A DNA stretch of 64,000 nt, taken from positions 62,001 to 126,000 of the forward strand of contig NZ_RKHG01000001.1 of NCBI RefSeq assembly GCF_003752415.1, in the 5' to 3' direction. The position numbers and the translations under genes were made by a program. This DNA comes from Luteococcus japonicus (GTDB taxonomy: Bacteria; Actinomycetota; Actinomycetes; Propionibacteriales; Propionibacteriaceae). The notes below the pieces were generated by a model that did not search any database, was not told the DNA's origin, and saw nothing but the letters and a program-made list of their open reading frames with translations. Shown piece after piece: positions 29,589 to 34,845 of the stretch (the first letter of the stretch is position 1; the number at the start of each line of letters is the position of its first letter).

Positions 29589-31072
29589 CGCAGACCCTCG
29601 ATGATGCGTTGTGCGGCGAGTTTGCCGGAGATCAACACCATCGGGATCCCGACTCCCGGAGTGGTTCCAGATCCCGCGAAGGCAAGGCCTGGCACTCGTC
29701 GGTCAATGTTCCGGGGTCGGAACGGACCGCTCTGGCGCAGGGTGTGGGACAGGGCGAAGGGCGTTCCGGCGGCCATTCCCTGTTCCTGCCAGTCCAGCGG
29801 GGTCACGAGCTGCTCGGTGCGGATGGCCGTGGGATAGCCCGCCGACTGCAGGAAGGACAGCATCCGCTCACGCATGGCTGGGGCCTCGCGCTCCCAGTCC
29901 ACGTGACCGACCTTCAGGTTGGGCACGGGTTCCAGGACATAGAGGCTCTGGCACCCTTCGGGGGCTGCGGCGGGGTCATGGATCGACGGGATGGCCACAT
30001 ACCGCGACGGGTCCCTCATGGGTCGTCCAGCAACCATCAGGTCGTCGAAGGCCTCGTCCCACTGGTCTCCGAAGTGGATGTTGTGGTGGAGGGCTCCGGC
30101 GGGGATCTCGGTGCCTTCGACACCGAGGTGCCAGACCACGGCCGACGGCGAGTACTCACCGTGCCGTGCCACCCACGGCGCGCGCAGGCCCGGGAGCATG
30201 CGTTCGTAGGCGGTGGGTAGATCGGCCGTGACCACGACGGCATCGGCGACGAGCTGCTCCCCATCGTCCAGGACGACGCCGCGGGCTGCTCCGCTGGCGT
30301 CCCGCAGGATGTGGTCCACCGATGTGGAGTAGCGAATGTGGACGCCGTGGGACTCCAGGGCTGCGGCCATGGCCTTGGGCACCGCATGCATGCCGCCTCG
30401 GGGGAACCAGACGCCCTGCACCGAATCCATGTAGGTGATGACCGAGTACAGCGCGAGGGCCTTGGCCGGAGCGAGGCCCGCGTACATGGCCTGGAAGCTG
30501 AACAGCTTGTGGAGGCGTTCGTCGTCGAAGCGGCGGTTTACCTCGGGTCCGAGCTTTGCGAAAGCCCTGAGCCGCAACAGTTTCAGCGCGGCGCTCGGCG
30601 AGCTGAACAGTGACAGCGGAGAGGAGAAGTTCTTGTCGATGAAGTGCGGTAGTTCAACATCGTTGAGCTCTTGCAGCCAGTCGACGAAGGTGTCGAAGGC
30701 TGCGGCGTCCTTTGTCCCGCATTCACGGGCGATCTCCTCGCGCATGAGCTCGCGGCCCGGCCGCACGTCAAGGGTCGAACCGTCGGCAAAGACGCCGTGG
30801 TAGCAGGGGTCCAGCAGGTCGAGTGTGACGTGGTCCTCAACGTGTTCCCCGAGGGCGGCGAAGGCCTCCTCCAACAGGGGGACCATGGTGAAGACGACCG
30901 GGCCCGTGTCGAAGCGGAAGCCGTCCTGCTCCAAGGTGCCGTTGCGCCCGCCCGGGAAGGACTCCCGCTCGACGATGGTCACCCGGTGACCGGCTCCCCG
31001 CAGATGCATGGCGGCTGCCAGGCCCGAGAGGCCAGCGCCGACGACCACGGTGGTGGTGCCCGTGCCGTTCAT
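29585..31072 (-). CDS. crtI: Phytoene desaturase
   Basis: A 495-residue bacterial-type CrtI that introduces four double bonds into phytoene to give lycopene. The FAD motif is VVVGAGLSGLAAAMHLRGAGH, with FPGGRNGTLEQDGFRFDTGP next. The C-terminal signature GSGTTPGVGIPMVLISGKLAAQRI is the conserved carotenoid-desaturase ending. I chose the second Met because its ATG sits in an ATGA overlap with the upstream crtE stop, as at every other junction of this operon. Confidence 0.95.
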   Translation of the reverse strand: MNGTGTTTVVVGAGLSGLAAAMHLRGAGHRVTIVERESFPGGRNGTLEQDGFRFDTGPVVFTMVPLLEEAFAALGEHVEDHVTLDLLDPCYHGVFADGSTLDVRPGRELMREEIARECGTKDAAAFDTFVDWLQELNDVELPHFIDKNFSSPLSLFSSPSAALKLLRLRAFAKLGPEVNRRFDDERLHKLFSFQAMYAGLAPAKALALYSVITYMDSVQGVWFPRGGMHAVPKAMAAALESHGVHIRYSTSVDHILRDASGAARGVVLDDGEQLVADAVVVTADLPTAYERMLPGLRAPWVARHGEYSPSAVVWHLGVEGTEIPAGALHHNIHFGDQWDEAFDDLMVAGRPMRDPSRYVAIPSIHDPAAAPEGCQSLYVLEPVPNLKVGHVDWEREAPAMRERMLSFLQSAGYPTAIRTEQLVTPLDWQEQGMAAGTPFALSHTLRQSGPFRPRNIDRRVPGLAFAGSGTTPGVGIPMVLISGKLAAQRIIEGLR

Positions 31073-32733
31073 CGGTTGCGCCACGCGATCTGTCCGGCGG
31101 CTTCGGTGAGCCCAGCGATGCAGGTCTCCTCAAGTGGTGGTCCGAGGAAGGCGACGGCGCGATCGTGCTCGGCGGATATCAGCTCCTCCATCCGGTTGCG
31201 CACGCCGGCCCGCTCCAGGGCCTTGGCGAGGTGGGAGGCCTCCCGTTGGCCGAACCGCTCCGATCCGACCCGTCCGAGCAGGTCCGCGTCGCTCCCTTCG
31301 AGGACGTCCGAGGCCAGGCTCAGGACCATTGTTGCCTTGCCTTCGACCAGGTCGTCGCTGGCGGGCTTGCCGGTCACCTCGGGATCGCCCCAGACGCCCA
31401 ACAGGTCGTCGCGCAGGGCGAAGGCAGCGCCGGCGTGGTCGGCGTAGCGTGCGAGGACATCGAGCACGGTGTCGTTGGCGTCTGCGGCCATGGCACCCAG
31501 CTGGAGCGGCCGGTCGATCGTGTAGCGTCCCGACTTGAGCCGCGCGACGTGGGTGGCGTGGTCGCGGTCCCTGCGCCCCGCTGCCGCACCTGTCAGGTCG
31601 GCCCGCTGGCCCACCATGAGCTCAGTGCACAACTGGTACCAGACGTCCCTCATCGGGCGGGGAGCCTCGGCCATGATCTGGTCCGCCAGCATGTGCGCCA
31701 GGTCGCCCAGAAGAATGGCGATGTTGTTACCGAAGACGCTGCTGGAGCCCAGAACCCCTGCATCCTCGTGGTGGCGGCTGGCTGCGATGTGCGCTGCGGG
31801 CAGGCCCCGCCGAATCTGCGACTCGTCCATCACGTCGTCGTGGATCAGGCCGAAGAGGTGGAGCAGCTCCAGTGCGGCGGCCGCCCGCACCGCCTGGGCC
31901 ATCTGCTGACCGTTGGCGGCGCTGCCGCCTCCTGCGAGAAATCCCCACCACACCATGGTTGCCCTGAACCTCTTGCCCTTGCCGATCAGGTGGGCGCTCA
32001 ACATCGCAGGCAGGTCGTCGGGCAGCACGTCGAGGCCGACCGGCTGGGCATCGGGGTGCCATCTCGCGTCAAGGCCGCCCAGCTGCTCCACCAACTCGTC
32101 CTCCACGGCTGCCAGGAACCCGGTCAGGTCTACGGGGCAGCATTGCGCGGAGGTCGGGGTGAGGCCCCTGGGCCGGTCCGCGAGCTGCTCCACCTGGAGC
32201 ACTGACCAAGGGCTGAACACTTGGGGAGTAGCTGTCACCGCCGCGCCCAGCGCTTCCCATTCCACCCAGGCCCAGTCCATGACCTCGTCAGGGTCAGGGT
32301 TCAGCTCACCCCCGTCGGTACGGGCGACGTAGACGGGGCAGATCTCGTTCTCGACGATTCCACCCGCATCGACGGCGCGGTAGCGGAAGTCCGGCAGCAC
32401 AGGTCGCGGGTCCTGGATCTCGATGCCCAGCTCCTCGAAGGCCCGGCGACGAATCGCGTCCCGGTCGTCCTCCTCGGGGCGAGGGTGGCCGCAGCAGGCA
32501 TTGGTCCAGACGCCCGGCCAGGTGACCTTCGTGAGGGCACGACGAGTGATCAGCACGCGACCTCGATCGTCGAACAGGTAGCAGGAGAACGCCCGGTGCA
32601 AGGGGGTGGTGCTCGTGTGGACGGCCAGGCGGGCCGACGTCCCCACAGGGGTGCCCTGGTCGTCGAGCAGGATGACGAGGTCGTCCACGGCTTCGTCCAC
32701 CATGGAACCGCTGTTCGTGCTGAGGTTGATCAT
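31069..32733 (-). CDS. crtE: IPP isomerase (type 1) fused to GGPP synthase
   Basis: A 554-residue two-domain enzyme. Residues 15-190 are a Nudix-type IPP isomerase with the catalytic Cys80/81 region TNACCGHPRPEEDD, the Glu pair in GGIVENEICPVYVA and the WAWVEWE element. Residues 205-554 are a trans-prenyltransferase with GKGKRFRATM, the first Asp-rich motif DDVMD at 299-303 and the second in RDDLLGVWGD at 441-450. One chain therefore makes DMAPP from IPP and builds GGPP from it. AGGAG lies six to eight bases before the ATG. It is the first gene of the crt operon, divergent from the CarH-type regulator. Confidence 0.95.
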   Translation of the reverse strand: MINLSTNSGSMVDEAVDDLVILLDDQGTPVGTSARLAVHTSTTPLHRAFSCYLFDDRGRVLITRRALTKVTWPGVWTNACCGHPRPEEDDRDAIRRRAFEELGIEIQDPRPVLPDFRYRAVDAGGIVENEICPVYVARTDGGELNPDPDEVMDWAWVEWEALGAAVTATPQVFSPWSVLQVEQLADRPRGLTPTSAQCCPVDLTGFLAAVEDELVEQLGGLDARWHPDAQPVGLDVLPDDLPAMLSAHLIGKGKRFRATMVWWGFLAGGGSAANGQQMAQAVRAAAALELLHLFGLIHDDVMDESQIRRGLPAAHIAASRHHEDAGVLGSSSVFGNNIAILLGDLAHMLADQIMAEAPRPMRDVWYQLCTELMVGQRADLTGAAAGRRDRDHATHVARLKSGRYTIDRPLQLGAMAADANDTVLDVLARYADHAGAAFALRDDLLGVWGDPEVTGKPASDDLVEGKATMVLSLASDVLEGSDADLLGRVGSERFGQREASHLAKALERAGVRNRMEELISAEHDRAVAFLGPPLEETCIAGLTEAAGQIAWRNR

Positions 32734-32867
32734 GGCGCTCTCCTGTACGGGGGTCTCGCCCGATGCTATGGGTGCCGGTCAGTGCGAGACACTGACCTAC
32801 TCAGAAATCTACGCACAACAGCACTAGTGAGCAAATCTGTGCGCAGAAATCTTGATAGAATTTCCGT
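32734..32867. promoter_or_regulatory. carH / crt divergent control region with repeated motif
   Basis: This gap holds three copies of AAATCT in the same orientation, at 32805, 32833 and 32847: spacings of 28 and 14 bases, i.e. multiples of 14. The two outer copies share AGAAATCT. A TAGAAT -10-like hexamer (32856-32861) ends only six bases before the carH ATG, so carH may be nearly leaderless. The direct-repeat layout is like the multi-site operators that tetrameric CarH proteins cover in the dark. Binding is inferred. Confidence 0.55.
32777..32797. promoter_or_regulatory. Perfect palindrome upstream of idi-crtE
   Basis: GGTCAGTG and CACTGACC form perfect 8-base arms around the centre CGAGA. 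It lies 43 bases upstream of the crtE ATG, where a repressor site or a 5'-UTR hairpin could act. It is distinct from the AAATCT repeats on the regulator side. Confidence 0.5.
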
Positions 32868-33728
32868 ATGGAGACGACAACCGCCCACGACATGAGCATC
32901 GGTGACGTGGCTGCTGCTGCGGGGATCAGTGCCTCGACGCTGCGCTCATGGGAGGTGCGGTACCAGCTGGTCGACCCGATTCGCTCGTATGGTCTGACCC
33001 GTCGCTACACCGAGGCGCAGTTGGAGACCATCCGAACGATGAAGCAACTGGTGGACTCCGGGCTGCCCGCGCGCAAGGCCGCAGCGATGCTCCGTCAGGC
33101 GGCGCCTGCTCAGCCCCGCGTCTCACAGGCGGGGCCGCTCGGCGACTCCGGGCTGCTGGTGCGCCATGGGGCAGCTCCGGCGCAGTTGCGACGGGCGATC
33201 GACGAGGTCTTCGCCTCTGCGCCGTTCGAGACAGTCCTGTCCATGTGGCTCATGCCGAACCTGCGCACCCTCGGCGACGCGTGGGCGGACGGGCAGTTGG
33301 ACATTGCCACGGAGCACCTCATCAGCATTCTGATCCGACACAAGCTCGGGACCTTGCTCGACGCGCTCCCTTCGGACGGGCCACGGGTCCTGGTGGGCCT
33401 TCCCGCGGGCGCCCGGCACGAGATCCCGTCGCTCGCTCTGGCCATCTGTCTGCGTCGGCGACACTTCGACGCCCAATTCCTGGGAGCTGACACCCCAGAG
33501 GAGAGCTGGGCGGCCGCCTGCGCCATGCTCACGCCACAGGCCATCGTGCTGGGCACGCTCCTGCCAGCGGACACCCACAGCGCGCAGTCCGCGATCCAGG
33601 CCTGCAGCGGCCGGGTGCCGCTGATCTACGTCGGCGGCCCACAGATGCCTGACACGGACCTGGCCACGCATCTTCCCGATGACATCCCCATGGCGGCGGA
33701 TGTCATCGCCGCCTCCCTCGCCAGCTAG
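32868..33728 (+). CDS. carH: CarH/LitR-type B12-dependent photoreceptor repressor
   Basis: A 286-residue MerR-family regulator. Residues 9-75 are the winged helix (MSIGDVAAAAGISASTLRSWEVRY). Residues 100-160 are the four-helix cobalamin cap with the W-x9-EH motif (Trp139, Glu149, His150) that marks light-sensing CarH proteins. Residues 170-285 are a B12-binding Rossmann domain with His184 in GARHE as the probable lower axial ligand. In known CarH, adenosylcobalamin drives tetramer formation and repression in the dark, and light breaks the Co-C bond and releases DNA. It is divergent from the crt operon and probably represses it and itself. Confidence 0.93.
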   Translation: METTTAHDMSIGDVAAAAGISASTLRSWEVRYQLVDPIRSYGLTRRYTEAQLETIRTMKQLVDSGLPARKAAAMLRQAAPAQPRVSQAGPLGDSGLLVRHGAAPAQLRRAIDEVFASAPFETVLSMWLMPNLRTLGDAWADGQLDIATEHLISILIRHKLGTLLDALPSDGPRVLVGLPAGARHEIPSLALAICLRRRHFDAQFLGADTPEESWAAACAMLTPQAIVLGTLLPADTHSAQSAIQACSGRVPLIYVGGPQMPDTDLATHLPDDIPMAADVIAASLAS

Positions 33729-33774: not shown

Positions 33775-34845
33775 GTGAGCAATCCATCCAACGGGGCCGC
33801 CCCTACCCATCCACTCGCCCCCTATGACGCCCTTCTGCTGGTGTCTTTCGGGGGTCCGGAGGGGCCCGATGAGGTGATCGACTTCCTCGAGATCGTCACG
33901 AAGGGCTCCGGTGTGCCTCGTGAGCGGCTGGAGCATGTGGGGGAGCACTACTTCCGCTTCGGTGGTCGCAGCCCGATCAACGACCAGAACAGGGCACTCA
34001 TCGCCGCCCTGCACTCGGAACTGGCGGACCGCGGCGCAGACATGCCCATCTACTGGGGAAACCGCAACTGGCATCCCTTCATCACCCAGGCGCTGGAGGA
34101 GATCGTCACCGCTGGTCATCATCGGGTCCTGATGCTGACCACCAGCGCCTACCCCAGCTACTCGGGCTGCCGGTCCTACCGTGAGGACGTGCAGGAAGCC
34201 CTCGACGAGCTCGATGCGCCAATGGTCATCGACCGCATCGGTAACTACGGACTGGACGACGGTTTCGTCACCGCCAACGCCCAGGCGCTGCAGGCCGCTC
34301 TCGGCGAACTGCCCGGCGCTCACGTGCTCTTCGTCACCCACTCGATCCCCACCGCCATGGACGAGGCATCCGGGCCCGTCGGCGAGTCGGGCGCCTACGT
34401 GCGCCGGCACCTCGACGTGGCCGGGCGGGTGGCAACCGTCGCAGGGGGTGCCAGCGGTCACGAGCTGGTCTTCTGCTCGCGCTCCGGGCGCCCCGAGACT
34501 CCGTGGCTCGAACCGGACGTGAACGATCGCCTCGCAGAGCTACATGAGAAGGGAATCGACAGGGTGGTGATCGCTCCCATCGGTTTCGTGAGTGATCACA
34601 TGGAGGTCATCTATGACCTCGACACCGAGGCGCGGCAGACCTGTGACGAGTTGGGCATGACGATGGTCCGCGCGGCAACGGTGGGGACCATGCAACCCTT
34701 CGTCGCGGCGCTGATTGACCGGGCCATGTCCCGCGCGGACCAGGCACGAGTGCAGCCTGGGTGCCCGCTGCAGACCCCCGAGGGGTGCGGTGGCCACGGG
34801 TGCTGCGCCAACTCGCGGGCGCCACTGACCCCGGCGCTCGACTGA
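33775..34845 (+). CDS. hemH: Ferrochelatase (coproporphyrin-type)
   Basis: A 356-residue enzyme that inserts Fe2+ into a porphyrin; in actinobacteria the substrate is coproporphyrin III. Marks are YDALLLVSFGGPEGPDEV, the metal-site His in LFVTHSIPTAMDEASG, and VVIAPIGFVSDHMEVIYDLD. The C-terminal Cys-rich stretch (CPLQ...GCGGHGCC) fits the [2Fe-2S] cluster of actinobacterial ferrochelatases. The start is a GTG preceded by AAGGAG. It follows carH by 46 bases, so it may be transcribed with the photoreceptor and supply heme or limit free porphyrin in light. Confidence 0.93.
   Translation: MSNPSNGAAPTHPLAPYDALLLVSFGGPEGPDEVIDFLEIVTKGSGVPRERLEHVGEHYFRFGGRSPINDQNRALIAALHSELADRGADMPIYWGNRNWHPFITQALEEIVTAGHHRVLMLTTSAYPSYSGCRSYREDVQEALDELDAPMVIDRIGNYGLDDGFVTANAQALQAALGELPGAHVLFVTHSIPTAMDEASGPVGESGAYVRRHLDVAGRVATVAGGASGHELVFCSRSGRPETPWLEPDVNDRLAELHEKGIDRVVIAPIGFVSDHMEVIYDLDTEARQTCDELGMTMVRAATVGTMQPFVAALIDRAMSRADQARVQPGCPLQTPEGCGGHGCCANSRAPLTPALD

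Follow-up and report, generated by a model that had tools for sequence, protein, structure and literature searches.

The carotenoid (crt) operon in the window, a 64-kb stretch of Luteococcus japonicus DNA, is faced by a gene for a CarH-like regulator that differs from the usual crt-linked CarH of related bacteria in its clade, in the wing of its DNA-binding domain and in the sequence of the intergenic gap in front of it. The explanation that best accounts for the locus as a whole, to which we would give an even chance, is that a CarH-like repressor of a divergent clade took over the crt locus and acts through an AAATCT-type operator. The domains and signature residues of the protein, the gene order, the missing canonical operator array, the placement of the protein in a tree and its altered wing all point in this direction.

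The regulator is a protein of 286 amino acids encoded on the forward strand (32868 to 33728), with an N-terminal MerR DNA-binding domain and a C-terminal cobalamin-binding domain, which is the domain arrangement of CarH and the class I LitR proteins. The Pfam models MerR_1 (2.5e-14) and B12-binding_2 (3.1e-5) both score over their cut-offs, and the Rossmann B12-binding model matches weakly (19.8 bits against a cut-off of 32.1) in a region that is covered by the alignment with Thermus thermophilus CarH (TtCarH, PDB 3whp/5c8d; residues 8 to 258 of the regulator, E 2e-28). The best-matching NCBIfam family is by far CarH (8.9e-36), yet the score of 123.6 bits is far below the 400-bit cut-off of the curated equivalog (NF052513); the regulator is therefore named “CarH-like”, a homologue of CarH that lies outside the equivalog as judged by its score. 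An initial annotation had called a CarH-type B12 regulator with a W-x9-EH motif and a B12-ligand histidine. The motif is present as GDAWADGQLDIATEH and the histidine as part of GARHEIP, and with the domains, the TtCarH homology and the NCBIfam match these signature residues uphold the call in the form of a CarH/class-I-LitR-like protein. We consider it highly probable that this is a CarH-like adenosylcobalamin (AdoCbl) binding regulator.

On the reverse strand the gap is bounded by the divergent crt operon, whose first gene (31069 to 32733) is a single open reading frame of 554 amino acids that joins a NUDIX isopentenyl-diphosphate isomerase domain (PF00293) to a polyprenyl synthetase domain of the GGPP-synthase type (PF00348), here called the idi-crtE fusion. 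Downstream of it lie crtI-, crtB- and other crt-type genes. The same fusion stands opposite CarH in about 20 relatives, at 50 to 60% identity, and the divergent arrangement is conserved. The gap between carH and idi-crtE measures 134 bp (32734 to 32867), and it is likely that the regulator represses crt from here. On its other side the regulator is followed after 46 bp by hemH, encoding a ferrochelatase (33775 to 34845, forward strand; PF00762 1.2e-72, also matched by the NCBIfam ferrochelatase family), which is probably co-transcribed with it; in the relatives compared, a search up to 1.5 kb from carH found no hemH. The source genome also has a cobalamin adenosyltransferase gene (PF01923). 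No structured RNA or riboswitch from Rfam was found between 31000 and 35000, and no terminator or strict sigma-70 promoter was called.

The operators of known CarH proteins provide the reference against which the gap has to be read. Within the family and order to which the source genome belongs, the majority of CarH-like genes, many of them opposite the idi-crtE fusion, have tandem TGTCCAATGTT repeats of 11 bp upstream; read on the opposite strand, TGTCCAATGTT is the published nnnnTnnACAn repeat of 11 bp (PMC9304148). A weight matrix built on this motif found 87 sites in 23 of the 24 comparison loci, among which a spacing of 11 bp clearly predominates. The best site in the window gap scores −0.11, against a mean of 3.2 for shuffled sequence and values mostly between 13 and 19 in canonical loci, so that degenerate copies of the canonical repeat are ruled out by the matrix, and tandem 11-bp repeats with a TnnACA (in reverse TGTnnA) core are lacking from the gap. 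No tandem canonical copy within one mismatch occurs in the whole source genome. The statement in the initial annotation that known CarH operators differ from this one is in this way sharpened: 11-bp repeats stand in the loci of most relatives and are absent here. Proteins with a canonical wing and no upstream repeats also exist (L008, L015 and the q9 rows of L037 and L038). As a separate observation, the crt-linked carH genes of the family (L005 to L031, L042, L056 and L061) mostly have canonical arrays upstream, often two of them about 50 bp apart, and form a ready set for operator studies.

What the gap does contain is three copies of AAATCT on the forward strand. The first, R1 (32805 to 32810), lies in the context CAGAAATCTACGCA and resembles the AAATCTAGACA upstream of the L004 regulator, one of the two nearest relatives. 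The second, R2 (32833 to 32838), is at the −35 position of a candidate carH promoter with a 17-bp spacer, and the third, R3 (32847 to 32852), begins 14 bp from R2 and lies directly 5′ of the putative extended −10 element TGATAGAAT (32853 to 32861). The ATG at 32868 comes 6 nt after the −10 hexamer (TAGAAT), which suggests that the carH transcript is probably leaderless. Both this promoter and the candidate crt promoters described below were recognised by reading the sequence and were not called by a strict consensus scan. AAATCT occurs five times in the 64 kb (3.0 expected), with three of the five copies inside the gap. Dinucleotide shuffles of this 134-bp sequence yield at least three non-overlapping copies of some hexamer in 0.87% of cases, and at least three whose spacings share a divisor of 9 or more in 0.07%.

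The spacing of these copies had been taken as a 14-base operator code, with the repeats at multiples of 14. The three copies are where they were said to be, while the “multiples” rest on two intervals only (28 and 14 bp). The code itself finds no support in conservation, as the 14/28 spacing was seen in no other locus and the hexamer is single in the nearest relatives; AAATCT-N8-AAATCT is absent from the relatives' loci compared. A lack of conserved repeat spacing in relatives had been named at the outset as refuting the idea, and the phasing part fails on this count, in what is a weak test with only two distant clade relatives (43% identity). In the 3.45-Mb genome there is no second copy of the 14-bp pair up to one mismatch, so that no close copies mark a regulon elsewhere. 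We doubt that the exact 14-bp phasing matters. The element itself fares better in these relatives, with one same-strand copy upstream of each gene, AAATCTAGACA at −92 in L004 and ATATCTAGACA at −94 in L003, both containing A(A/T)ATCTAGACA. Read on the other strand this is TGTCTAGATTT, which retains a TGTnnA core, and the repeats in the window look like eroded forms that retain AGATTT. The recurrence weakly supports AAATCT as an element of the clade formed by the window protein, L003 and L004, in which the sharing of short-word motifs is only marginally above that in shuffles. Whether the AAATCT elements are part of the regulator's operator is, on present sequence, evenly balanced.

The stretch from the AAATCT elements to the crt start holds a second candidate, GGTCAGTG-CGAGA-CACTGACC (32777 to 32797), described initially as a perfect 21-base palindrome. 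It is instead an interrupted inverted repeat (8-5-8), whose 8-bp arms match perfectly around an asymmetric centre of 5 bp. A CarH-type light sensor could read this inverted repeat as a dyad, with the AAATCT trio incidental, and dyads are the usual targets of MerR proteins (PMC8156234). Arms of at least 8 bp with a spacer of at most 12 bp occur in 1.9% of shuffles of the gap, and the inverted repeat covers the −35 and spacer of one candidate crt promoter, whose −10 would be TAGCAT (32764 to 32769, reverse strand); an alternative crt −10, TAGATT (32806 to 32811, reverse strand), overlaps R1. Close to the promoter of L004 there is an inverted repeat as well, CTAGACAA-n9-TTGTCTAG. Against this, the window inverted repeat resembles neither the TGTCTAGATTT-like elements of the clade nor TnnACA and does not overlap the carH promoter, whereas the AAATCT trio is statistically the stronger feature and its hexamer recurs in L004, so that we regard the dyad as an unlikely target of the sensor. 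A search for copies that might mark a regulon found none close, with no other instance at 0 or 1 mismatches in the genome.

The complete difference between the inverted repeat and AAATCT, in sequence as well as in position, would also fit two regulators, an unrelated TetR- or MarR-like protein on the inverted repeat and the CarH-like protein on AAATCT, with control chiefly of carH itself and hemH. Relatives do vary in which regulator stands at the crt locus. As read from the sequence, a MarR-like open reading frame stands opposite idi-crtE in G007 (L078:3964-4542), and idi-crtE of G088, from the same genus, may have one upstream (L077, about 1380 to 1790), in a genome where no CarH-like match was found. 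In Corynebacterium, too, crt is under the MarR-type CrtR (PMC6739363, PMC5401885). No second regulator gene adjoins the window gap, however, and we think an arrangement of this kind improbable.

The relationships of the protein bear on how a CarH-like regulator without a canonical array came to face the crt operon. A maximum-likelihood tree of 56 rows places the window protein with L003 and L004 (support 99/99), its nearest relatives at 43% identity, and outside a crt-linked CarH clade of 29 rows (100/98). The branch of the window row is long (1.63), and forcing this row into the crt-linked clade costs 18.6 log-likelihood units with an AU test p of 0.061, which is no formal rejection; the placement is therefore strong but not conclusive. 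When the DNA-binding and cobalamin domains are taken separately, the best hits of both are L003 and L004. These three proteins alone share an altered wing, (I/T)RRY, which reads GLTRRY in the window protein against the canonical GGYRLY; elsewhere among the rows this place is taken by a Y/F-R motif, in most cases GGYRLY. All three also lack the 11-bp tandem array, and the change of wing and the change of operator amount to one evolutionary event in one clade, a correlation with n = 1. A protein pattern scan of the genome contigs gave no useful relative.

Another account of the gap takes the repeats as products of chance or of promoter composition in an AT-richer region, and the protein as a fast-diverging but ordinary CarH ortholog with an operator that has been lost or goes unrecognised. 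The repeats have only two spacings, neither of them conserved, R2 sits where a −35 element would be, and the AU result leaves room for ordinary orthology. The shuffles argue against it, since a hexamer trio, and still more a phased one, seldom arises in them, as do the best tree and both domains, which favour the L003/L004 clade, and a relative that keeps both paralogues; we find this account hard to credit. That relative is G006, where L004 lies away from crt and the canonical L042 stands opposite idi-crtE and has canonical repeats, TGTCGAATGTTTGTCTAATGTT. With an L003/L004-type protein at the window crt locus and MarR-like proteins in G007 and possibly G088, this group appears to have exchanged its crt regulator more than once. 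We consider it quite probable that here a divergent paralogue displaced the usual crt regulator. The absence of the canonical array apparently reflects the presence at this locus of a sister regulator that has diverged and has an altered wing, and the operator seems to have changed along with the regulator.

Two further features of the sister loci were observed. A similar small secreted protein (SxLHAVPxATVDVWANGKPLLTNF...) is encoded divergently beside both L003 and L004 (L068:7522-8499 and L041:4869-5777, both on the reverse strand). In G007 (L068:9360-11902) the sister regulator adjoins a heme-type radical SAM gene and a protoporphyrinogen oxidase gene, and light control of the conversion of porphyrin to heme is a possible theme of the clade.

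The signature published for light-responsive cobalamin-binding domains, GxxW, EH, GxxH and GxxxP (PMC11796333), is complete in the regulator as GDAW, EH, GARH and GADTP. AdoCbl-based light sensing is likely on these residues, and that the regulator is light-responsive is a claim we make with some confidence. In TtCarH, His132 takes over the ligation of cobalt in the light, and most of an H132A variant remains tetrameric after light (PMC10442372). The equivalent residue in the regulator is alanine, and the published ligand switch cannot operate unchanged here. The replacement is no peculiarity of the window protein, and neither is the loss of the AxHxxP loop, as both are common in relatives: in 54 of the 55 actinobacterial homologues another residue (Ala, Glu, Gln, Arg, Ser and others) stands in place of His132, with the other signature residues kept. 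Its absence is a lineage trait and His132 is not usable as a family criterion in these homologues, in which either another route leads from photolysis to release or a different signal is sensed. A sensor of AdoCbl or redox state rather than light, coupling carotenoid and heme synthesis to the state of cobalamin, would suit the missing His132, the linkage with hemH in the window and with heme genes in G007, and the example of the B12-independent CarA, but with every element of the light-responsive signature in place, and with most of the homologues lacking His132 facing crt or carrying canonical CarH operators, it is the least probable of the alternatives.

Under the preferred reading, a CarH-like (class I LitR-type) repressor of the divergent clade would have taken over the crt locus from a canonical CarH. 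In the dark and with AdoCbl bound it would most likely oligomerise and bind the carH-crtE gap, with AAATCT-type elements that overlap the regulator's own promoter as operator, and would there repress both carH-hemH and the divergent idi-crtE operon; light would cleave the Co-C bond and release the repression. The non-canonical operator, in place of a TGTCCAATGTT array, would accompany the changed wing. In its fullest form, that a photoreceptor of the CarH family with a changed wing left the 11-bp TGTnnA tandem code for an AAATCT(AGACA) operator without 11-bp spacing, displaced the canonical CarH and took hemH under the same control, the proposal is tentative and falls short of an even chance.

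Comparison with known systems helps to place the locus. T. thermophilus CarH (PDB 5C8D/5C8E, 3WHP) has the same MerR domain, cap and Rossmann cobalamin domain, Wx9EH motif and lower ligand (His177), likewise with carotenoid genes opposite, but differs in possessing His132, in its wing (GGHRLY) and in the tandem nnnnTnnACAn repeats. The canonical crt-linked proteins (L005 to L031 and L042) share the idi-crtE fusion, the domains and the absence of His132 with the window, and are set apart by their own clade, the GGYRLY wing and the TGTCCAATGTT arrays. L003 and L004 agree with it in their RRY wing, their lack of a canonical tandem and an upstream element of the A(A/T)ATCTAGACA type, and differ in lying away from the crt locus, beside the secreted-protein gene, with a single element and no 14-bp phasing. 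The operators of myxobacterial CarH and CarA are a precedent for plasticity, with degenerate repeats, but are still 11-bp repeats with a TnnACA core (PMC9304148). The class II LitR proteins of Pseudomonas (PplR1 and PmlR2; PMC9758184) show that an operator in the LitR family can have another geometry, TGTACA-N12-TGTACA; unlike the window protein they have no B12-binding Rossmann domain, a LOV partner senses the light, and the core is different.

If the proposal is correct, the locus would be a compact natural case of a photoreceptor-repressor that changed its DNA specificity together with its operator, and since a sister paralogue retains the old code in a related genome, specificity could be tested directly by swapping wings between the two. 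Green-light control systems based on CarH would also gain an orthogonal operator. The lack of His132, regarded as central to the light response of CarH, in nearly all of the actinobacterial homologues compared bears on the generality of the Thermus mechanism.

A minor observation concerns TCTCAGTGCTTAACACTGAGC, which is present in three identical copies, in either orientation, in the source genome (G000:C1:504297, 2802662 and 3241425); these are perhaps ends of a mobile element.
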